Assembly (NCBI RefSeq): GCF_001436255.1
Contig: NZ_AZEI01000062.1
Coordinates: 1-64,000, forward strand
Source of the DNA: Lentilactobacillus rapi DSM 19907 = JCM 15042
Lineage (GTDB): Bacteria; Bacillota; Bacilli; Lactobacillales; Lactobacillaceae
Length of the DNA: 64,000 bases
Reading direction: 5' to 3'
In this document: positions 7,282 to 64,000 of the stretch, piece by piece
How positions within the stretch are numbered: the stretch's first letter is position 1
Layout: each line of letters starts with the position of its first letter
Notes under the pieces: generated by a model
Seen by the model: the letters and a program-made list of their open reading frames with translations, nothing else
What the model was told of the DNA's origin: nothing
Databases searched by the model: none
Position numbers and translations under genes: made by a program

Positions 7282-7400
7282 AGGACAGCTCCGCAAAGCA
7301 GAAGTCTGCATGTAAGCACCACCGAGAAAAATTCCAGAACCGGGAATTTCTCTCGCTGGAGACTTACATTCCGACTTCTAATCGCTTTGATCCGCTCACT
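7282..7400 (+). repeat. Family A structured repeat, copy 1
   Basis: The copy runs from AGGACAGCT to GCTCACT. Stems: GCAAAGC with GCTTTG, AGAAGTC with GACTTCT, ATGTAAG with CTTACAT, and an inner hairpin around AAAATTCC/GGAATTT. A fragment GCTCACTGTTTT just before it (7270-7280) looks like the end of a lost upstream copy, because tandem copies elsewhere are joined by the same GCTCACT-spacer-AGGACAGCT junction. It sits 5 nt beyond the stop codon of the alcohol dehydrogenase gene. Confidence 0.85.
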
Positions 7401-7404
7401 TTTT

Positions 7405-8163
7405 CTACTGTGCTGTATATCCGCCATCTACGACGAATTCTGCACCAGTTGCGAATTTGGATTCATCTGAAGCCAAGTAGACACAGATCCAGGCAATATC
7501 ATTCGGTTCGCCAATATGGCCCATTGGTGTCTTGCTTCTTTGCGACATCATTTCTTCTGCACCCTCAAGATCGTCAACTAACGGAGTCTTGATATAGCCT
7601 GGGTGAACGGTGTTAACTCGCACGTCATAATCTTTTAAGGCACAATCCAAGGCAGCTGATTTGGACATGATTCGCACGGCACCCTTTGAAGCATTGTATG
7701 CACCCAAGTTCGGATCGCCGACAAAACCTTCGATCGAGGACATGTTGATGATTGAAGCGCCGAGGTTCTTATTCTTCATTCGTTGAATTCCCAAGCGGGT
7801 TCCAAAGAATACCCCGTCCAGGTTAATTGACTGTAATTTGCGCCATTCTTCAGTTGTCGTTTCTTCAACGCTCTTGCTAACCGCAATTCCAGCGTTGTTA
7901 ACGATTGTGGTCACTTGGCCAAATGCTTTTTCAGTTTCATCAAATAATTTGGTCCAGCCTTCTTCATCTGAAGCATCGTGCTTGATGAATTTGATGACAT
8001 CCGGTCCACCAACTGATTTTGCGGCTTTTTCACCAACATCAGCGTGACGGCCAGTAATGACCACTTTGGCACCTTCTTCAACAAATTTATCAGCAACAGC
8101 CAACCCAATTCCTAAAGTACCACCGGTTACAATCGCAACTTTTCCTTTTAATCGATCTGTCAT
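7405..8163 (-). CDS. R-specific NADP-dependent alcohol dehydrogenase (short-chain dehydrogenase)
   Basis: The 252-aa protein is the ortholog of the L. kefir/L. brevis R-specific alcohol dehydrogenases as I remember them. It reduces ketones such as acetophenone to R-alcohols with NADPH. Visible features are the Rossmann TGGTLGIG (13-20), TGRHAD with Gly38 (NADP preference), NNAG (89-92), catalytic Asn114, Ser143 (MSSIEG), Tyr156 and Lys160 (YNASK), and the C-terminal GGYTAQ whose Gln coordinates Mg in the known tetramers. CGGAGG precedes the ATG. It has its own promoter (8226-8254), so it is probably not part of the ureide operon upstream. The physiological substrate is unknown; a role in NADPH reoxidation is inferred. 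Confidence 0.95.
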   Translation of the reverse strand: MTDRLKGKVAIVTGGTLGIGLAVADKFVEEGAKVVITGRHADVGEKAAKSVGGPDVIKFIKHDASDEEGWTKLFDETEKAFGQVTTIVNNAGIAVSKSVEETTTEEWRKLQSINLDGVFFGTRLGIQRMKNKNLGASIINMSSIEGFVGDPNLGAYNASKGAVRIMSKSAALDCALKDYDVRVNTVHPGYIKTPLVDDLEGAEEMMSQRSKTPMGHIGEPNDIAWICVYLASDESKFATGAEFVVDGGYTAQ

Positions 8164-26687: not shown

Positions 26688-26794
26688 GTGCTCCGCAAAG
26701 CAGAAGCCGACAACCAAGAATCCTCAAAACCAGGATTTCTGTTGGCGGAGACTTAGGTGCTGGCTTCTATTTAAGCGCTTTGCTAGGCACGCTC
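26688..26794 (+). repeat. Family A structured repeat, copy 2 (diverged)
   Basis: The stem AGAAGCC/GGCTTCT replaces AGAAGTC/GACTTCT of other copies, with pairing kept. GCAAAGC pairs with GCGCTTTGC. The copy ends inside the last codons and stop of the minus-strand gene at 26783. Confidence 0.7.
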
Positions 26795-27025
26795 ATCCTC
26801 AAAGTTATCATTATGTAACGACACATTTGGCCGCCACTTCTTGCCAATCTGTTCCCACTGAAAATTTGAGCTGACCTTAATCTGCTTGTTCTTCTTATCC
26901 ACTTCGGTAATCAAAATCAAGCGATGGTCGAATTCACTTCTGGTCCGTTGAATATCTGGCGTATCCAGTAATATTTTGGTGTTCTTGCGAGTGAATCCCC
27001 CAAGATCAATCAAATCGTAATCCAT
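26783..27025 (-). CDS. Small hypothetical protein, 80 aa
   Basis: I do not recognise the family. GGAGGGG lies 7 nt before the ATG, a strong ribosome site. The sequence is hydrophilic and begins MDYDLIDLGGFTRKN; the middle (HRLILITEVDKKNKQIKVSS) looks like two beta strands, and it ends SLHNDNFEDERA. The last four codons and the TAG stop lie inside a family A repeat, so the original C-terminus may have been replaced by repeat sequence. No neighbour gives a hint of function. Confidence 0.6.
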   Translation of the reverse strand: MDYDLIDLGGFTRKNTKILLDTPDIQRTRSEFDHRLILITEVDKKNKQIKVSSNFQWEQIGKKWRPNVSLHNDNFEDERA

Positions 27026-27736
27026 AAAATCCCCTCCAAAAAAGTGTGAGCATCGCTAAGGAGCCAAAAGCGGGCTAAAAGTGTCCCGAATCACAAATCC
27101 CGATTTTGGAGATTGATGATTGGGCCACTTATGCTCAGTTCCTGCTTAACGAAGCTGGCCTTAAATATACTTTCATTATAAGCAAAGCGGCCTGTTAAGC
27201 CCAAATTTGAAAAGTGTTTCGTTCTAGGCCAAAATCCTTATAGTAATTATTACTTGTTATTAAGGGATGTATGTTAGAATACAATCACGGTTATAGCCTC
27301 TAGTCCGCTTCATATCAAGGTATTTGGGACATTTTATCAATTCAATGATCATCACAATTGCGATTAATTGAACCGAATCGGAATCGTTTACTTCATTTTT
27401 CCAAATTGATACTAAAAAATGTCCAAAAATATTATTCCTAATCTTTCTTTCAAAACCCAAAAAGTCTGGAAACGCCTTTAACAATGTTGTTTTGTAAAAA
27501 ATGCTCAACCGCTTATATATCAAGGGATGAATCCATTCCTGTAAGGTCTAGAACTAATTTGACCTACCTTATTAATTAGATGATAATTTAGTTGCTAGGG
27601 TTTATGATTACAAAGATTTGTGATTACCCCTTTGTATCATTTCATTGTGAAATCTCACGCATTTCACAAACTCAATTGACAGGAACAGGGGTGGGTTGTT
27701 ACGGACTACACATTATTCTTCGAAAAAAATGATCAG
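27026..27736. other. Long non-coding region upstream of the Mga-like regulator
   Basis: About 700 bp without a supported gene. 27047-27165 resembles a badly decayed reverse-orientation family A repeat (GTGAGC, AAATCCCGATTTTGG, CACTTATGCTC). 27645-27669 is an inverted repeat, and TTGACA stands at 27676-27681. The minus-strand open frame at 27260-27523 has no ribosome site and no family resemblance. Confidence 0.45.
27645..27669. promoter_or_regulatory. Inverted repeat upstream of the Mga-like regulator gene
   Basis: TTGTGAAAT (27645-27653) and ATTTCACAA (27661-27669) form a perfect 9-bp inverted repeat with a 7-nt centre, directly upstream of a TTGACA -35-like box. It may be an operator for autoregulation. 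Confidence 0.5.
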
Positions 27737-40244: not shown

Positions 40245-43200
40245 CTAGTTACGTCTCTTTCTCCGCAATGCGGCCAAGCCAATCGTGCTTAACATTCCCA
40301 CGACACCCAAGATTACGGCCCCTTCATTTTGATCGTCACCAGTTTGTGGCAATCGCTTCTGGGCTAATTGTTGACTTGAAGCTTGTTTATTCAAATTATT
40401 CGATTGTTGTGAAGCAGGTTTAGCTGGACCATATACACCAGCAACCTTAACAGGTTCGTTCGACAACCGCTTTGGCTGAGCGTTGGTGTTAACTCGAGCT
40501 TTCCCAAGCTTAGCTGGCTCATTACCATTATTACTACTATTGCTACGACCATTACCAGGCTTCGACGGCTGATTATTTACAGTCGTTGGCTGCGTTGGAG
40601 TTGGAGTAGCTGGTTGTGTTGGTTGAGTCGGCTGCGTTGGCTGGGTCGGCTGAGTCGGTTGCGTTGGCTGGGTCGGCTGAGTCGGTTGCGTTGGTTGAGT
40701 CGGTTGATTAGTCGGTTGCGTTGGCTGCGTCGGTTGCGTTGGTTGCGTCGGCTGCGTTGGTTGCGTCGGCTGATTAGTTGGCTGAGTCGGCTGCGTTGGC
40801 TGAGTCGGCTGTGTTGGCTGAGTCGGTTGCGTCGGCTGCGTTGGTTGTGTTGGCTGAGTCGGCTGCGTTGGTTGAGTCGGCTGCGTTGGCTGGGTTGGTT
40901 GACTAGCCTTTACATAGTGAATATACGTGTCCTTATCAGGAGTTGCATAAGGCGCTGTTGGTGGCAAGTAACCCTTAGTTGCATCAGACTTATCAGCCTG
41001 AACTAAGTCGTTTCCATCAGCATCCACTGCCTTGTAACCATCAATATAAGGGATAATCCCAGTCGTTGGTGTCGTGATCTTCGCTGGATCATCAGGATCA
41101 TTTGGATAAACCGAAATGTCCTTGTCGCCACCAGTTGGTAGGATAGAAATATATTTACCAATTAATCTGTACGTGTAGGTAATGGTCTTATCACTGTTCG
41201 TCATTGTGCCATTAGCATCACTTGGTGTCTTGATCAAGTAGTACTTCTGAACTACGAGTGCTTTAGACGTATACTTATCGCCAGCTTTTAAGTCCGCTGT
41301 TGTGGTTGATGGGGCAACGTCATTGCCCTTTTCGTCAACATACTTCACGATCAACTTGTAAGTTTGAGCATCAGTAATTGTCAACTTACCAGGAACAACC
41401 TTAATATCATAATTAGGATTATCTGTGGCACTGGCCGTCACACTAATGTCATAACTACCAGGTTCGATATCTTTACTAATATCACCAAGGGTATATTTAA
41501 GATCATCACCCTTAACTGGCTTGCCATCGACGGTAGCCACGATCTTGCTTTGATCACTGTATGGCTTACCATCGTACTCTTTGTTCAGCGTTGGCCCAGT
41601 AATCGTAATTGGTGCCTTGGTAATCTCAAACTGGGTATTCGTAACATCATCCATCGTGATTGCCTTGGTTGAATTTGCTGCCTGTAAGTCAGCCAATCCT
41701 TTGGCACTCAACTTAACGTCGTACTTGCCCACGTTCTGACTGTTAATACCAGTCGTATCAAAGTCATCTGCTGTCCAACCAGCAGTTGGGGCAACTAAGT
41801 TATCACCCAACTTAACATCGAAGACTGTTGGGTCAGTCGAAGCATCACCATCGTAGACTTTGCTCTTAGGTTGGAGAACCACAGCACCCTTATCAACTGG
41901 TGTGGTTGTGATCGTCAACTTACCAGGAACAACCGTAACGTTATAGTTAGGATTGTCAGTGGCATTAGCCGTTACGGCAATATCATAATCACCAACTTCA
42001 ATGTCCTTACTAATGTCTCCAAGGGTATACACAACATCAGCACCCTTAGCAGGCTTACCAGCGACGGTAGCGACAACCTTGGTTGTGTCAGCGTACGGCT
42101 TGCCATCATAGACTTTGGTCAAGGTTGGGCCTGTAATTGTAACTGGTGCCTTGGTAATCTCAAATTGGGTATTCGTAACATCATCCATCGTGATGGTGCT
42201 CTTCTTGTTGGCTGCTTGGAGATCAGCCAATCCTTTAGCACTCAACTTAACGTCGTACTTGCCAACATTCTGGCTATTAATGCCGGTGGTATCAAAATCA
42301 TCAGCAGTCCAGCCAGCCGTTGGGGCAACTAAGTTATCACCTAACTTGACATCAAAGGTTGTTGGATCGGTTGTGGCATCGCCATCATAAACTTTGCTCT
42401 TAGGTTGCAGAACAACGGCATCCTTACCAACCGGTGCAGTTGTAATCGTCAACTTACCGGGAACAACCGTTACCGTGTAGTTTGGATTATCAGTATCAGT
42501 TGCCGTTACGGCAATGTCATACGTTCCTGGATCAACATCCTTACTGATATCTGCAACGGTGTACTTAGGATCAACTCCCTTGGCTGGCTTGCCATCGACC
42601 TTAGCAACATCCTTGTCCGCTGCTGTGTATGGCTTGCCATCATAAACCTTGTTGAGAGTTGGACCCGTAATCGTAATTGGGGCTTTGGTGATTGTGAACT
42701 GCGTATTAGTAACATCGTCCATCGTGATCGTCTTAGTTGTGTTAGCAGCTTGCAAATCACTTAATCCCTTGGCACTCAACTTAACATCGTAACTACCAAC
42801 GTTTTGACTGGTAATCCCGGTGGTATCAAAATCATCAGCAGTCCAGCCAGCCGTTGGGGCAACTAAGTCGTCACCTAACTTAACATCGAAGACCGTTGGA
42901 TCAGTTGTGGCATCGCCATCGTAGACCTTACTCTTAGGTTGCAGAACAACAGCATCCTTATCAACTGGGGTCTGGGTATAGGTTACCGTGAATGTCTGGG
43001 TGGCACCCTTGGCATCAGAGTTCAAGTCAAATGCTGGATTGGCTACTAATGCATCAGCCAAAGTATCATAAGACTTGCCGTCTGGACCAGTAACCTTATA
43101 AGTACCAGTCTTGGCTAAGTCAGCATCCGTTGTCTTAAACGTGATGTCATTGGTACCCGTTGCCGTCTTGGCACCTGTATTAGGGTTCTTAGTATCATCA

Positions 43201-46200
43201 TTACCTAATGCCGTATCGATCACTTTAGCAGCAACCGTTCCGGGACCTTGGGTTACCAAGTTAGCCTTGTCTACTTGGAAGTGATTAACCAAGGTTGCTG
43301 AACCGTCTAGCTTGATAGTGGTATCTCCATCTGTCGTTGTGAAGACATACCCAGGAACAGTTGGAATGTTATTCAAAATCTTAGAACCAGCAACTCCTAC
43401 TGGTGGGGTGGCAGTTCCATCATCACTATAGCCACCATCTGAACCAGGGAAACCGTTAATGACTTTACCATCCTGATCAACGTTCTTAATATGAGCAGTA
43501 GTTGTAAATGAATCGGTAATGGAGCCGGTCACATTATTCAAACCATCAACTCGGAAGTAAGTTGGGATAGTGACTTGCTTACCACGGTCATTAATACTAT
43601 CAGGATCTTTAACTGGCAAGATGACATCCGCCATATCTTGAGAAGCTAGCTTGGGAATTGAAGTGACGATTCCAACAATACTACTCCACTTTGTGCCAAC
43701 CTTATCAGCAGTCATTAAATCATCCGCCGTAGTGGTGCTGGTTCCATCCTTGGCGTTGAAGTAGTATTTGTGCCCATTACTAGTTAAGGTGACACTCTTT
43801 CCGCCATCGGTTAGTTCCAATGCACTATTTGAATACAAGGTTGTCGTGGAATCACCAGCAGTACTCTTACCCTCAGTAGCAGCACCAGTCATTTGAAGTG
43901 CAAACTTACCTGGGGTATCTCCCTTATTAGCAGTAACTTCGGTTGGTAAGTTAATGATGCCGCCAACGTTAGTGCTAGTACTAGCCGTGTTGTTTGCTAA
44001 TCGAAGACGGATAGATTGCTTATCATTTTTCATTGGGTTATTGACGCCGCTAGTACTATAACTAGTTCCAAAACTTTGGTTATCTTGGATGGCCCCACTT
44101 AAAATCATGCCTTCAGGAGCATTAATCATCATTAAATCACCAAAGTTCCGACCAAGGGTAATTCCAAGACTGTAGACACTCCTACCATCAAACGAACTTA
44201 GTCCAGATACAGTTGTGGTATTTCCCTCTGAATCAGTTAAAATTGTATGGAGATTTTGAGCATTACTTTGTTTAAATAAACCAGTGTATTGACTTACATT
44301 GCTATCATTATCGTCACCGGCAAGCATTACAACACTGGTTGATTCTCCGTCCTTACCACCCTTAGTCGCAGATGCAACATCGTAAGTTTTGCCATTGTAT
44401 GTGTTAGTAGTTGCTTCTGTATTTTGGAAAGGCTGCAGTGCAGATACTGCATCTGCATTTACTTTAAACTGGACATTCAGTGCCATACTACCTGGATCGA
44501 ATTCTAATCCAGTACCGGTGTAATCAACCTTATAGACTACTTGATTATCGGCATTTGTATATTGAGTTACCTTTGGAGAAATAGTAACACCACTCCACCC
44601 AGCACCAATTTGAGAGAATACTTGACCATTGGCCTGTTTGACAAGTTGTGTTTGCTTAGGCACGGTAATGTAAAAGACTGGGTCCTTTTTTGTTAATGCA
44701 ACACCGTAGTATCCGGGCATATCATTCTCATCTTTAGCTGATGGATGATTAACCAGGTTATTGTTAAATCCACTGTTCGGTTGATTATTAACGTAAAATC
44801 CATTCGCATTCATGTTAGGATTCTTGTAAACTGGTTTTGATCCATCGCCAATGGAAACAGTGAACGTGTCACCAGGATTTAAGACCTTGTTAAAACTTTG
44901 AGTAGCATCTAATGATATTGGAGCATTTATAAGCGCTGTTGCAGTTGTCGTTTTCGTAGCAATAGCTTGACCAGTATCATTATCGTCAACTGTCAAAACA
45001 AATGGTACATTTGTTTTGTCTGCGACACCATTCTTAACGTACCCTAGCGTAGCAAAAGAAGTTGTTTGCACATCATTTTCAGTACCATCTTGGTTGAGCA
45101 CTTCACCACCCCAACCAATTTTCCCCCACATAGTTTCTCCGGGATTCAATACAAAATTTGGAGTGATTTCATAACTTTTTACCGAGGCACCAGTAGGAAC
45201 AGTAAACATTGTAGTAGTATTGACACTACCTGTTTGTGCAATCGTAGAAAGAGTGCTTCCTTCCTTAATATCTTTAAATTCTTGTGAAGTACCATTAGTA
45301 AAATTAATTTTGACATTATAACTGTTGCCGGAAGCCCAAGTTCCATATGCTTTTGTTAGCAACGGTATATATAATCCGGTTGATTCTACACTATCTGGAA
45401 GAGCCATTATTATTGTTGCATTTAATTGTGCTTGCCCAGTTGAGGTGATTCCAAAATTATTTAGAACATTTGAAGCTTGATTCCCCACCACTAATTCATT
45501 TTGACTATTAGCATTATAAAGATACGTACTAGCAGCTTTTCCTGTAGAAGCAGCAACATTCTCAATTAGTTTATTACTTGTACCATCAAATGTTATAGAA
45601 CCATTAAGTGCAGATGTTTTAGGTGTTAATCCTTTTTCTGAGCCATTGTCAAGAGCAACGGGGGCTGTTGTATTACCGAAATTTTTAGAATAAACAGCTT
45701 TCCCTATGCTAAATGTTTGCTGACCCGTTTGTGTTGAATCACCGTATGAACCAATAAAATATAGCGATGAGTTGAAAACGTTATAGTTTCTTCCTTCTTT
45801 AGTCTTAAAGACAACTGGCGTGCCAACCCCACCTGGTTGTGATATTTCAACCGTTGCTGAATTAATAGGTGTATGCTGCCACATATACTGCTGTGTTTTT
45901 TCCGCATCAAGCGAAAATGTGGCTGGCACGTTAACTTCAATATCAACATCATTAACACTACCGTTTAAGGAATTGCCCCATTTAGTCATACCACCGGATA
46001 AAGAATAAATATAATCTATATTTTTAATTCTTGGAAGTGTATTGATGGTACCAACTGTTCCCAACGTCAACTTATTAATCTTATTAGTATTCTGAATTGT
46101 AATACTAGTTGTTTTATCGGTAAGATTAGTACCTCCATATGATATCGGCAGCAAACTCTGATCAGCTACTGATCCAATTGGACCAGCTAAACCACCAGTT

Positions 46201-47654
46201 GCTGGAGTGCCTGATCCCATATCACTTAGAACACCATAATTAGCATTCCCCATGCCAGTTAAATTAATAGTTTGGTTTGAAGTCTCTCCATCATTTTGAA
46301 CAGTCCAAGTATATGTAACTGAACCGTCTTTATTTGTCACTTGTTTAGGACTTCCTGTTGCAATAGCAGTATTTTCATATCCTTGCTTATTCGTTAATGA
46401 AGCAGGAATTGTAACGTGAAAAGTGTCGCCCTTGTTTCCAGAGTAACTAAAATTGAAAGGTATCGATTGATCATAAAGACTTTGTCTGTCGTAAACGTAT
46501 GTGGCTGAGCCATCGGAATTTACAATAATCTGTTGAGATCCGTCATCCCATTTTGAAGCTGTAAATGTCAGATTTGCCGCCTCCGCCGGATCAACCACCT
46601 GCCTGAAACTCTTCGTCAACCCCTGTTTATGTAAGTTGGCTAGAACTTTGTTGTAGCTCTTGGTGTTGCCGGTCGTAATGATCAAATCCCCGTAATCATC
46701 GACTTTGGCGGAAGTTCCATTTGGGACGCTGACATCGTTGTAGGCTGCTTTGGCATTGGCAACCACGTGGGCTTTAACACCCTTTTTATCAGCTGAGACC
46801 AAGGCAGTTGCCTGGTTCAATTCAGTGTGCATGTTAGCAACCACTGTTAAGGCTGAATTCAACTTGGTCGTTGCTTGCTTCTGGTTCTTAACAGCGATCT
46901 TTTGGGCAGCCTTAATTGTCTTCAAGACTTGCGCTTGTTGGGCCTTTTGATGGGTACCAATTGCAGTTAAGGCTTCGTCTTGAGGAATGTTGTCATTTTC
47001 TTTGGCATTGGCCAACTTGTTACCCTTATTGATTTGGGTTTGGGTGGCCTTCATAATCTTGTTAGCCCGGTTAACGATTGATTGGGCTGACTTTTTGTTG
47101 TATTTAGTTAACTTCTTATAAGTAACTTTTTTAACTTTGAGCTGATTATTGACCTTTTTATTCACCTTGGTGGTCTTCTTTTGAGAAGTTGCCTTGGTTG
47201 AATTGTTAGTGGCATCGGTCGTTGCGGCATTGGTTTGATCGGTGGTGCCAGTTGTTGAACTGCTGGTACTGTTGGTTGAACCAGTGGTTGCTGAATTGGT
47301 TAACGATGATTGGTCGCCAGTTGTTGTGCTGGAGCTGTTTGCGTCAGATGTTGCAGTGACTGCGCTGCTTTGGCTGCTATTGTTGCTTTCACTGGTTGAA
47401 GTAGCGGTTACCGGCTTGGTTGCGGTCGCCGTTGCAGTACTAGATTCACCGGTAGCTTGAGCATCATCCCCGTTATAAGTAGCGGTGGTGTCAGCGTGCA
47501 CTGGATGTGATGACAACATGGTATATGACAACCCAGAAGTGAAGACTGAGATGCCGGCAACTAACCATAATTTGCCCTTCTTGTATAGCTTGTAGTGTTC
47601 CTGTTTCTCCAAGCTATCTTTGTATAGTCTTGAATTATAATTGTATCGATTCAT
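40245..47654 (-). CDS. Giant LPXTG adhesin with Pro-Thr-Gln stalk, about 2469 aa
   Basis: The start at 47654 ([20 protein letters not shown]) is chosen over a TTG five codons earlier. The signal is KxYKxGKxW type ([20 protein letters not shown]). Domains in order: Ser/Thr/Asn-rich region (about 50-155); Lys/Ala-rich helices (160-285); the segment [20 protein letters not shown] ... [12 protein letters not shown] shared with the other adhesin; a very large beta-rich region (to about 1540) with several bacterial adhesin-like folds; three YDG/MBG-like pairs ([18 protein letters not shown] ... [16 protein letters not shown]); MucBP-like modules; about thirty Pro-Thr-Gln triplets; and [20 protein letters not shown] with a basic tail. 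It is a sortase-anchored adhesin; the ligand is unknown. It follows a four-gene unit on the same strand. Confidence 0.9.
40609..40902 (-). repeat. Tandem 9-bp repeat encoding Pro-Thr-Gln
   Basis: About thirty units of a 9-bp repeat (variants of TGGGTCGGC/TGCGTTGGT on the plus strand) with occasional 12-bp Pro-Thr-Asn-Gln variants. It forms a wall-spanning stalk. Because units are multiples of three, slippage changes stalk length without breaking the frame. Confidence 0.9.
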
Positions 47655-47674
47655 GTGTGATACCCCCAAAAGTA

Positions 47675-47793
47675 AGTGAGCGGATCCAAGCGGTTAGAGA
47701 TCGGAGTGTAAGTCTCCTCGAACGGAAATTCCGGTTTTGGGAATTTTTGTTCGAGGTGCTTACATGCAGATCTCTGCTTGGAGTAGCTGTCCT
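47675..47793 (-). repeat. Family A structured repeat, copy 3 (reverse orientation)
   Basis: Read on the minus strand it begins AGGACAGCTACTCCAAGC and ends GGATCCGCTCACT. Its stems are CCAAGC/GCTTGG, AGAGATC/GATCTCT, TGTAAG/CTTACA and CTCGAAC/GTTCGAG, each different from other copies but self-complementary. It lies between the small gene at 47800 and the adhesin start. Confidence 0.85.
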
Positions 47794-48008: not shown

Positions 48009-48043
48009 AGTGAGCGGAGTAAAGCAGTTAGAAGTCGCTACGA
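48009..48043 (-). repeat. Family A repeat remnant
   Basis: AGTGAGCGGAGTAAAGCAGT and the following TAGAAGTCG match one outer end of the repeat (reverse orientation). The remainder is missing. The stop codon of the SseB-like gene (48038-48040) lies inside it. Confidence 0.65.
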
Positions 48044-53296: not shown

Positions 53297-53368
53297 CCAC
53301 CTTAGCTCGGGCAAGCTAGCGGGTATTTAATAGTCGTTTAATGTCACCGTCTTATACGGCTCTACACG

Positions 53369-53399
53369 GGAAGTTCCGTTCACGCGGAACTTCCTTTTT
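53369..53399 (+). terminator. Terminator of the type I toxin locus
   Basis: GGAAGTTCCG, loop TTCAC, GCGGAACTTCC then TTTTT. It is nearly the same as the terminator at 32503-32533 on the minus strand. Confidence 0.8.
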
Positions 53400-53502
53400 G
53401 TGTTTATATTATATCACGGTTAGAGGAATTTGGATAGAAAGATCGCTTAGATGCACCGTACCTCTGATATAACATGTTTGATTTATAGAAAAATTTCCAA
53501 AT

Positions 53503-57509: not shown

Positions 57510-57628
57510 AGGGCAGCTCCTCCAGGCAGCAACCTGCACGTAAGCACCACAAGCAAAAATTCCAAAACCGGGAATTTCTGCTGGTGGCGACTTACGCTCC
57601 GGTTGCTAACCGCCTGGATCCGCTCACT
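57510..57628 (+). repeat. Family A structured repeat, copy 5
   Basis: The outer stem is CCAGGC/GCCTGG and the second GCAACC/GGTTGC, both unlike the usual AAAGC and AGAAGTC versions yet complementary. It is joined head-to-tail to the next copy by a 6-nt spacer. Confidence 0.88.
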
Positions 57629-57634
57629 TCTCTT

Positions 57635-57751
57635 AGGACAGCTCCTCAAAGCAGGAATCTGCACATAAGCACCACAAGCAAAAATCCAGAACCAGGATTT
57701 CCGCTTGCGGAGACTTATGTTCCGATTCCTAACCGCTTTGTTACGCTCACT
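57635..57751 (+). repeat. Family A structured repeat, copy 6
   Basis: Stems CAAAGC/GCTTTG, AGGAATC/GATTCCT, ATAAG/CTTAT and an inner AAGC-AAAATCC/GGATTT-GCTT hairpin. Second unit of a tandem pair. Confidence 0.88.
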
Positions 57752-57823
57752 CTCATTTTTCTTGACAAATTCTCATAATCGCCGTAACCTGATAACAATT
57801 AAATATCCGTCCTACAAAAACCG

Positions 57824-58138
57824 TTGATGTGGAGATCAAGATTGTCATGCCCGTAAAGAGAGCCGCCGTTGCTGAGAGTGCGACCGGATACAAGCAATTA
57901 AATGGACCGCAGAGGGTTCTTCCGAAAGTATGCGAGTACGAAGAAACGTTCAGGCAGACGTCATTTGCCGGGAGTGTGTTGGCACTTCGCTAAGCGTGAG
58001 TTAATTGAATGGATTCGTTATTTGACCGATTTTAATTCCAAATGACTGTCTTTTCTGTTAATCTCAAATTAAGGTGGCACCGCGGAATAATCCGTCCTTA
58101 AAGAACCAGTTAATGGTTTGAGTCAGGACGGATTTTTT
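57824..58138 (+). promoter_or_regulatory. T-box riboswitch upstream of trpEG
   Basis: The T-box sequence AAGGTGGCACCGCGG is at 58071-58085. TTAAGG can pair with CCTTAA to form the antiterminator, and the terminator is AATCCGTCCT/AGGACGGATT (58089-58134) followed by TTTT. Stem I elements (AAAGAGAGCC, GCTGAGAGTGCGACC) lie at 57850-57895. TGG at 57903-57905 followed by A is a candidate Trp specifier, which agrees with the genes downstream. Uncharged tRNA would switch on transcription. Confidence 0.92.
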
Positions 58139-58267
58139 GTGTCCAAAATTATTTTACGTGCCATTCATCCTATAATCCCGGAGGTTTCAGTTATGATCAA
58201 GCTTATCGCCAAACGATGGCAATCCCAACCAGTTTATTGACACAAACTCAACTTGGAGGTCATCAAT

Positions 58268-60488: not shown

Positions 60489-60614
60489 TTCCATCAATTT
60501 AAAAATGGGACGCGCAGTGGCATTGATAAATCATTTGCCGACTAATATCTCAGCCCTTTTGACTGTCTGAATCCCTTGCTTTGAAACAAGTTTCACTCTG
60601 CTGCTACATAGACT

Positions 60615-60731
60615 AGGACCGCTCCTCAAAGCAGAGATCTGCACATAAGCACCCTGTCTGTAAATCCAAAACCAGGATTTTCAGACAGGGCGACTTATGC
60701 TCCGATCCCTAACCGCTTTGCTACGCTCACT
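60615..60731 (+). repeat. Family A structured repeat, copy 7
   Basis: Stems CAAAGC/GCTTTG, GATC/GATC, CATAAG/CTTATG and an inner CTGTCTG/CAGACAG hairpin. First unit of a tandem pair, 7 nt before the next copy. Confidence 0.88.
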
Positions 60732-60738
60732 GTACTTT

Positions 60739-60856
60739 AGGACAGCTCCTCAAAGCAGAAGCTTGCACCTAAGCCTCCACCACCAAAAATCCAAGCCCGG
60801 GATTTCTGGTGGTGGAAACTTAGGCTCCAGCTTCTAACCGCTTTGCTACGCTCACT
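60739..60856 (+). repeat. Family A structured repeat, copy 8
   Basis: Stems CAAAGC/GCTTTG, AGAAGCT/AGCTTCT, CCTAAG/CTTAGG and an inner CCACCACC/GGTGGTGG hairpin. Its last bases are the stop codon of the zinc-ribbon gene on the other strand. Confidence 0.88.
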
Positions 60857-62556: not shown

Positions 62557-62703
62557 CGATTTCTAACATAGAATCAAAGTAGCTGGGCACCCATCAGGAA
62601 TGTTCAGCTATTTGTTTGAAGAATTTTTAAATGAGTTGGAGAGCATTTTTAGATATGATTTTATAAATGTGCTTTCGTTTCTTTACCCTAATTTCTAAAA
62701 AAA

Positions 62704-62741
62704 CAGCCAACCATGAACAAAAAATGTTCATCATTGGCTGC
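62704..62741. terminator. Bidirectional terminator
   Basis: AGCCAACCATGAACA pairs with TGTTCATCATTGGCT around an A-rich loop, with A-run and T-rich flanks. It serves the convergent phosphatase and signal peptidase genes. Confidence 0.8.
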
Positions 62742-62789
62742 TTTCTTTAAGGTTTGAGGATCGCCCAGAGCTCGTCACCCTGTCGCTGT

Positions 62790-63542: not shown

Positions 63543-63661
63543 AGGACAGCTCCGTAAAGCAGAAACTTCCACATAAGCACCACCAACAAAAATCCCCAAA
63601 ACCGGGATTTCTGTTGGCGGAGACTTATGCTCCGACTTTTAACCGCTTTGCTCCGCTCACT
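63543..63661 (+). repeat. Family A structured repeat, copy 9
   Basis: Stems AAAGC/GCTTT, CATAAG/CTTATG and inner CCACCAACA/TGTTGGCGG hairpin; the AGAAAC arm is less well paired. First unit of a tandem pair. Confidence 0.87.
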
Positions 63662-63667
63662 CGTATT

Positions 63668-63786
63668 AGGACAGCTCCTCCAAGCAGAAGTCTGCACGTA
63701 AGCACCTCAGAGAAAAATTCCCAAGCCCGGAATTTCCCTCTGAGGAGACTTACGCTCCGACTTCTAACCACTTGGATCCGCTCACT
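63668..63786 (+). repeat. Family A structured repeat, copy 10
   Basis: Stems CCAAGC/ACTTGG, AGAAGTC/GACTTCT, CGTAAG/CTTACG and inner CTCAGAG/CTCTGAG hairpin. It ends 25 nt before the start of the exporter gene, so it could lie in its leader. Confidence 0.88.
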
Positions 63787-63810: not shown

Positions 63811-64000
63811 ATGAAAACAAAATCAACTTTAGGAAAACGAATCTGGCTCATTTTCATTTTAGGGACCATTAGTGCATCCGGACCATTATCAATCGATCTT
63901 TATTTACCCGCCCTACCAGAAATGACCCATGATCTAGCAGCACCAGCATCCCTCATTCAAATGAGTTTAAGTGCCTGTCTGCTGGGATTAGCGCTGGGAC
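63811..64000 (+). CDS. Bcr/CflA-like MFS drug exporter (5' part only)
   Basis: GAGGTGACG precedes the ATG. The 63 codons in the window give a first membrane segment and the motif SASGPLSIDLYLPALPEM characteristic of the Bcr/CflA subfamily of multidrug exporters, followed by the start of segment 2 (QMSLSACLLGLALG). The gene runs off the window. Confidence 0.85.
   Translation, partial: MKTKSTLGKRIWLIFILGTISASGPLSIDLYLPALPEMTHDLAAPASLIQMSLSACLLGLALG

Follow-up and report, generated by a model that had tools for sequence, protein, structure and literature searches.

A probably mobile family of hairpin-forming DNA repeats at gene borders in Lentilactobacillus rapi and other Bacilli

Repeat units and arrays in the window

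Two units of a hairpin-forming DNA repeat of about 119 bases, which is probably mobile, lie at 57510-57751 of the window, the 64-kb stretch of the Lentilactobacillus rapi contig NZ_AZEI01000062.1 that was analyzed here. The original prediction of a repeat family with shared ends was borne out by the seed AGGACAGCT, of which the window has 6 occurrences where 0.22 would be expected, and by a profile search, which revealed eight full-length units (starting at 7282, 47675 in reverse, 57510, 57635, 60615, 60739, 63543, and 63668) and two diverged ones. About ten copies had been predicted; nine of them were recovered by the profile search, the one at 48009 is a 29-bp match, and the reverse unit at 27046 had been missed. 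Orientations (+ and -) are those of the strand on which the repeat was first described; the folding strand, here called F, is its complement. The features are as follows.

7282..7400, + strand: single full unit (profile search); the convergent gene 7405-8163 has its stop codon 4 nt from the 3' end of the unit
26690..26789, + strand: diverged unit (nhmmer, 46.9 bits)
27046..27161, - strand: diverged unit, absent from the original prediction (nhmmer, 52.7 bits)
47675..47793, - strand: single full unit (profile search), directly preceding the 2474-aa ORF 40245-47669
48009..48037, - strand: 29-bp fragment of a unit end, seen by eye and not reported by the profile search
57510..57628, + strand: unit 1 of the two-unit array 5' of the trpE leader (profile search, structure model)
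57629..57634: spacer TCTCTT between the units of the 57510 array
57635..57751, + strand: unit 2 of the 57510 array (profile search, structure model)
60615..60731, + strand: unit 1 of a two-unit array (profile search); L. dabitei has four units here
60732..60738: spacer GTACTTT between the units of the 60615 array, identical to the 3' flank
60739..60856, + strand: unit 2 of the 60615 array (profile search)
63543..63661, + strand: unit 1 of the two-unit array that precedes the gene with its start at 63811; L. dabitei has no unit at this site
63662..63667: spacer CGTATT between the units of the 63543 array
63668..63786, + strand: unit 2 of the 63543 array, followed by 24 nt and the ATG at 63811

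The 3' end of the reverse unit at 27046-27161 adjoins TTTTTTGGAGGGG...ATG of an 80-aa ORF (26783-27025), and a later ATG with a Shine-Dalgarno-like motif is found 20 nt beyond the 47675 unit. By eye, a TTGACA box follows the 57510 array. The window also holds a T-box-like leader of the anthranilate synthase gene (57815-58140), whose match is far below the Rfam gathering score, and a match to the RatA RNA antitoxin (53324-53411; 78.4 bits). In addition, a stretch of about 45 bp (62699-62745) has matches at other places in at least 8 of the 24 Lentilactobacillus genomes, and it seems to be a second, shorter interspersed repeat near the 63543 array.

A search with the structure model R1 gave at least 150 full-length matches in the L. 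rapi genome, which answers the initial concern that the genome might contain no other copy. Many units are organized in head-to-tail arrays with spacers of about 6 bp. In 33 fetched stretches and the window, 137 copies (partial ones counted) fell into 52 groups, none with mixed orientation, and 79 of 85 spacers measured 4-8 bp, 48 of those exactly 6 bp; the 33 stretches over-represent arrays because they were chosen around BLAST hits with a two-unit query. A GCTACATAG-like stretch was seen by eye ahead of some first units, often so at L075-L091 and also at 60600-60614 of the window, and is perhaps an array leader. A further unit type, B, with the same ends, a similar length and a very different core, lies inside the same kind of array (L018:1458-1574, L095:5258-5374, L095:9024-9140, L157, and L170).

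Covariation and the strand kept foldable

The hairpin formed by the 119-nt unit stacks about five stems and includes purine-rich internal loops as well as a bulge of 4 nt; on F, the ends of the unit read AGTGAGC...GTCCT in Lentilactobacillus. The compensating arm pairs first described are present in the sequence as quoted, and the covariance check proposed with them confirmed pairing far above shuffled and slid controls, also across genera. With the originally proposed fold, 96.3% of the stem cells of 63 units were paired and two-sided changes occurred at 24 of 38 pairs, with a covariation score of 0.425 compared to 0.158 in shuffles and at most 0.079 with slid partners. None of 500 shuffles scored as high, a count that is not a probability given that the structure came from the same alignments and their sequences share ancestry. 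One of five measures, the number of further pair types, was not clearly above the shuffles (54 vs. 51.0, with 43 of 500 as high). In an alignment of the complement strand, comprising 70 units from at least four genera (g1, g12, g20, and g21) and one plasmid, 95.9% of the cells were paired, two-sided changes were found at 34 of 41 pairs, the covariation score was 0.681 (0.215 shuffled, at most 0.142 slid), and some columns varied among G·U, A-U, and G-C. At the gathering score, Rfam 15 gave no match over the window units or over nine loci of other families.

A folding strand under selection should tolerate G·U and avoid A·C. The strand as first written showed 64 G·U vs. 162 A·C in 193 units of L. 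rapi and L. dabitei; with each distinct helix counted once, the numbers were 42 vs. 107 in these genomes (p 1e-7) and 33 vs. 91 in other genomes (p 2e-7), where the helices behind both p values are not fully independent. By group, the G·U and A·C counts were 0 vs. 26 in genus g20, 3 vs. 13 at the trpE loci of Secundilactobacillus/Loigolactobacillus and 16 vs. 36 in other Lentilactobacillus, with g12 near balance (14 vs. 16). The asymmetry resides mostly in the apical stem P5 (6 vs. 50 and 3 vs. 41 in the two sets), and without this stem the lean was weak (36 vs. 57 and 30 vs. 50; p 0.04 and 0.03). In a control set of 21 leaders located before trpE in related loci (from 23 taken, selected by position and a T-box motif), the sense strand showed 75 G·U vs. 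6 A·C. In ten trpE loci searched against Rfam, a T-box reached the gathering score in two (L098 and L102), the window orthologue being weak, and there was no gathering-score match over the repeat units.

Fold energies pointed to the same strand. As RNA, the complement was the more stable strand in 309 of 310 units, with a mean advantage of 12.7 kcal/mol in the L. rapi genome and of 8-13 kcal/mol by group. The same preference was seen in a further set of units (51 of 51) and, across 11 genomes, in 54 of 58 units, among them those of G290 (equal means, three of five units favoring the complement) and G219 (one of two). With DNA parameters the complement was better in 193 of 193 units, so that fold energy does not divide RNA from single-stranded DNA. 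Deamination bias is an unlikely cause of the A·C excess, since C-to-T changes on the coding strand beside starts would raise G·U, yet arrays beside start codons carry 103 A·C vs. 37 G·U on the mRNA strand. The excess of A·C on the strand first described, together with the better fold of the complement, places the selected hairpin on the complement; F is thus shown to be the strand kept foldable, be it as RNA or as single-stranded DNA. The proposed selection for a folded hairpin is therefore supported by the covariation, with the strand corrected by wobble and fold energy to the complement of the one written. The comparison of G·U with A·C offers a general means of identifying the selected strand in a family of genomic hairpins.

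Placement, turnover and distribution of the arrays

The position of the arrays relative to genes was one-sided. In two samples from the L. rapi genome, a start codon with a Shine-Dalgarno-like motif was found within 30 nt of the 3' end in 50 of 86 arrays and at the 5' end in 1 of 86. The first sample contributed 26 of 44 arrays with a sense start at the 3' end and the single one at the 5' end; the second, 40 stretches from model hits outside the earlier coverage, contributed 24 of 42 at distances of 16-24 nt and 0 of 42. A convergent stop codon lay within 30 nt of the 3' end in 6 of the 42 arrays of the second sample, five of them at 2-3 nt, and stops at the 5' end were found in 3 of 42. Starts and convergent stops were assigned by simple rules (open frame, Shine-Dalgarno-like motif), not by annotation, and in at least one case, L020, the rule picked a wrong, nearer codon, whereas by eye a proper start is present within 30 nt. 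For the complete genome G049, from another genus, the corresponding numbers of starts within 40 nt were 11 of 23 vs. 0 (20 high-scoring stretches). Genus g20 had starts in 0 of 19 arrays, and the stop codon of a gene reading into the array lay at 0-5 nt in 6 of 19, compared to 0 of 19 on the other side. Among 33 additional arrays, from 11 genomes, 15 follow the stop codon of an F-strand gene within 60 nt and 3 abut the start of an opposite gene, while the far side had 0 starts and 3 convergent stops. These one-sided starts and stops across samples indicate that arrays tend to adjoin gene borders with the 5' end of F.

The genes behind 20 of 27 start-adjoining arrays were ordinary ones (PepX, ferritin, ArgG, GAPDH, dehydrogenases, and transporters, two having no Pfam match), and no theme common to the 20 was found. 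No fixed distance from promoters was detected (3 of 35, compared to 2.6 in shuffles), nor any strand bias relative to replication in G049, where 119 arrays (among the 150 units scored) were divided into 60 minus and 59 plus and, for the best assumed origin, the bias was no greater than in 30% of shuffles. The one-sided placement and the strand asymmetry are the surprising parts of the family; what makes it unusual is the flush placement at gene starts or ends, the swapping of pieces between copies, and the unexpected strand that is kept foldable.

Comparison with L. dabitei (genome G153, 97% DNA identity; trpE protein 96% identical) revealed turnover in both the number and the content of units. 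Of 18 arrays with both flanks found in L. dabitei, 17 were filled and one (63543) was empty, a ratio that gives no estimate of the frequency of empty sites because most stretches were fetched for holding units in G153. Insert lengths at these sites differed by about a unit or more at 10 (the empty site included) and were similar at 6; the remaining 2 contain runs of N. The flanks are mostly 90-97% identical, and units at the same site have often been replaced, most of them matching another locus at 90% or more. At 57510, both species have two units within the same flanks, the first of another type in L. dabitei (58%) and the second 81% identical, and each L. rapi unit has a 96% match elsewhere, one in the L. 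rapi genome and one in L. dabitei. Both units at L019:5285 were replaced (75 and 81%) with the spacer TGTATT unchanged, and at L025 the units were kept (99 and 89%). L015 showed the reverse of the general pattern, with units 96-99% identical and changed spacers. At 60615, the two units of L. rapi correspond to four in L. dabitei.

The comparison of empty sites among relatives, suggested at the outset, gave both filled and empty orthologous sites at 57510, 60615, and 63543. The 63543 site holds no unit in L. dabitei, one in G158, three in G156, and none in 11 other alignable genomes, and in named relatives the sites 57510 and 60615 were filled in 2 of 10 and 1 of 8, respectively. By eye, several empty 63543 sites have a stretch of about 24 nt between the -10 box and the Shine-Dalgarno sequence, which is missing or changed in the filled sites and in the empty site of L. 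dabitei.

The similarity among units was not evenly distributed along their length. In the L. rapi genome, 111 unit pairs from different arrays have cores (positions 18-99) at least 95% identical; their spacer identity was 0.49, compared to a background of 0.47, and their outer stems were partly alike (0.78 and 0.84 vs. 0.69 and 0.77). Units of one array were alike in their spacers (z 8.8) and 5' flanks (z 5.9) and mostly not in their cores, apart from a weak excess for segment 37-47 (z 2.5). Spacers were closer to the 3' flank than to the 5' flank (z 4.0 and 1.8), with no resemblance between the flanks themselves. In part of the arrays L177 and L178 (G158), alternate units are 97-100% identical, compared to 73-82% between neighbors; alternating units are likewise 99-100% identical in L090 (G088), and three neighbors are identical in L212 (G609). 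Duplication of a unit with its spacer, followed by exchange of cores between dispersed arrays, is the simplest account of this pattern.

Relatives of the repeat occur in other Bacilli of several families and are patchy among close relatives. R1 matched 18 of 24 genomes of the genus (four with at least 150 matches, six with none), 40 of 151 genomes and 16 of 40 genera of the family, and, the L. rapi genome included, 19 of 295 genomes of the order. With strict filters, R2, built on the complement strand, matched 7 of 398 genomes of the class, and six of the seven lie outside the order. Eleven genomes pre-selected for having hits, and thus no survey, were followed up; between 2 and 81 matches were obtained per genome, with some places matched on both strands. 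At the two loci seen in G563, a genome from another family, the region between the 23S and 5S rRNA genes contains a related unit oriented with transcription (L186:1501-1614 and L190:1501-1614). Matches were also found in 75 plasmid records; in the one record examined for genes (L043), a copy directly precedes a copper P-type ATPase gene, and the unit L043:2997-3112 is 99-100% identical in six genomes of several genera (L049-L054:1501-1616). No match was found in the phages searched for the repeat or in the plasmids searched with a g20 array.

Explanations of the family and comparison with known repeats

The account that we regard as probable is that of short non-autonomous mobile hairpin repeats, grown by tandem duplication and core exchange. 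Copies would insert with the 5' end of F flush at a gene border, in Lentilactobacillus a few bases before the Shine-Dalgarno sequence of an oppositely oriented gene and in other genera just after a stop codon, with a mobilizer assumed to act in trans and F kept foldable as RNA or single-stranded DNA. Arrays may lengthen by tandem duplication of unit and spacer, as the identical blocks suggest, and cores would then be exchanged between dispersed arrays, most likely by gene conversion, with spacers staying local. The mobile reading is supported because copy number ranges from 0 to at least 150 within one genus and filled and empty sites occur in relatives, and further by the turnover against L. 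dabitei, the core and spacer pattern, the tandem blocks, the placement, the strand, and the cross-genus covariation. The original proposal of a non-autonomous mobile palindrome thus gained support, with no insertion event caught. Against it, no insertion event was found and, in the flanks of 40 arrays, no target duplication, no mobilizer emerged among Y1_Tnp and RVT_1 proteins, only one of 18 compared sites was empty in L. dabitei (in stretches mostly chosen as filled there), L015 is reversed in pattern, and the wobble asymmetry lies mostly in the apical stem. Much of the turnover might also be accounted for by gene conversion on its own, with no mobility at the present day.

The strongest rival is a functional RNA of the F strand, such as a 3'-UTR stabilizer or a processed hairpin RNA, multiplied for its usefulness and not as a parasite. 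It agrees with the tolerance of G·U and avoidance of A·C on F, with the greater stability of F in 309 of 310 units, with the columns that vary among G·U, A-U, and G-C, with the sense stop codons adjoined by 6 of 19 g20 arrays and 15 of 33 arrays of other families, and with the sense direction between the rRNA genes of G563; in L. rapi, however, F is antisense to the adjacent gene start in most sampled arrays, the 20 genes behind arrays share no theme, and 6 of 24 genomes of the genus have no match, which together leave this explanation possible and rather doubtful. A bolder and less probable version of mobility would have F as an RNA replicating through the genome, forming a bacterial SINE-like family in several families of Bacilli, whose structured RNA or single-stranded copy would be set flush at translation borders by host or helper machinery and whose hairpin modules would be swapped between copies. 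That the arrays act in cis as sense-strand elements of translation or stability in mRNA leaders is quite unlikely, in spite of the sense start and Shine-Dalgarno-like motif at the 3' end of 50 of 86 sampled arrays. Such a role is disfavored by the excess of A·C over G·U on the mRNA strand, present even beside starts; moreover, the fold of that strand is about 12 kcal/mol weaker in L. rapi, 75 G·U vs. 6 A·C were counted in leader RNAs from this lineage, and array length is not kept between sister species. The structured RNA originally considered is accordingly disfavored as an mRNA leader, and it may instead be an RNA of the opposite strand.

Spread of REP-like elements by a RAYT/TnpA-REP transposase, suggested by high-copy intergenic hairpins with a strand-specific fold as in REP (PMC8266576), has very little probability left. 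Y1_Tnp was detected in 7 of 24 Lentilactobacillus genomes and was absent from G156 and G158, each with at least 150 copies. Four genomes of the genus reach such numbers; these two lack Y1_Tnp, and in a third the matches are confined to short pieces at the ends of contigs. In the L. rapi genome, a single Y1 transposase match was found, in an IS200/IS605-type element (L042:89-1872) with tnpA- and tnpB-like genes, and the REP-type transposase first proposed as the mover is not supported. RVT_1 occurred in 8 of 24 genomes and was likewise absent from G156 and G158, and neither domain tracks copy number in the 24 genomes. REP-like spread is hence largely refuted for Lentilactobacillus, unless a Y1 family below detection exists. 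Hardly credible at all is covariation free of selection, arising by intrastrand template switching (quasi-palindrome correction), for which the unit, a long quasi-palindrome, would be suited. In unit pairs with 1-3 core differences, which are not independent, one-sided changes (116 to mismatch, 33 via G·U) far outnumber two-sided ones (14), indicating that single events usually leave one arm unchanged and disfavoring such repair, which also does not predict the strand asymmetry.

Candidate memberships were also assessed. REP/REPtron was rejected on the 119-nt unit, a hairpin base without a GTAG foot and no matching Y1 distribution, and 5'-UTR cis-regulatory RNA on the excess of A·C over G·U on the mRNA strand. 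The target-site duplication of MITEs was not found, the flanks of 40 arrays being unlike at every offset tested (|z| at most 1.2), although old insertions could hide one. Of the distinct end modules that enclose the tandem internal modules of BOX, no counterpart was noticed by eye apart from the GCTACATAG-like stretch ahead of some first units. Since tested features were lacking or not established, the family is not filed as REP, MITE, or BOX. A search of the open-access literature gave no description of the family, which does not establish its absence from print.

Short structured repeats are usually catalogued species by species, with the folding strand assumed. Here, one family spans several families of Bacilli, its strand can be read from the wobble asymmetry, and its position is near Shine-Dalgarno sites or stop codons on one side only, so that the spread and form of such repeats become directly testable in food lactobacilli. 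Among systems in which a folded single strand is recognized, the attC site of integrons is bound by the integrase through its R and L boxes. REP elements are described as high-copy hairpins, the fold of one strand being recognized by a TnpA-REP enzyme, with a GTAG foot and a Y1 transposase (PMC8266576) and a length of 20-40 bp (PMC3733652); the present family resembles REP/BIME in copy number, hairpin, and strand-specific fold (PMC8266576) and differs in its length, its hairpin base, and the transposase distribution. Like the interspersed repeats bcr1-bcr18, described for the Bacillus cereus group and compared here by description, of which about half are transcribed and some have conserved structure (PMC3446304), the units are interspersed. 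They are also comparable, again by description, to the Sta-1, Efa-1, and Bhal-1 stem-loop families, intergenic repeated hairpins of Firmicutes that are tabulated per species, four of them figured with structures predicted on both strands (PMC2267715). The BOX elements of Streptococcus pneumoniae are composites of boxA-boxB-boxC, unlike the whole units repeated here, and the parts of their description considered give no Shine-Dalgarno-flush placement or strand-specific wobble (PMC3049150). They share with the present family an intergenic position, a structured sequence, and tandem modules varying in number between strains, for which unequal crossover is among the proposed mechanisms (PMC3049150).
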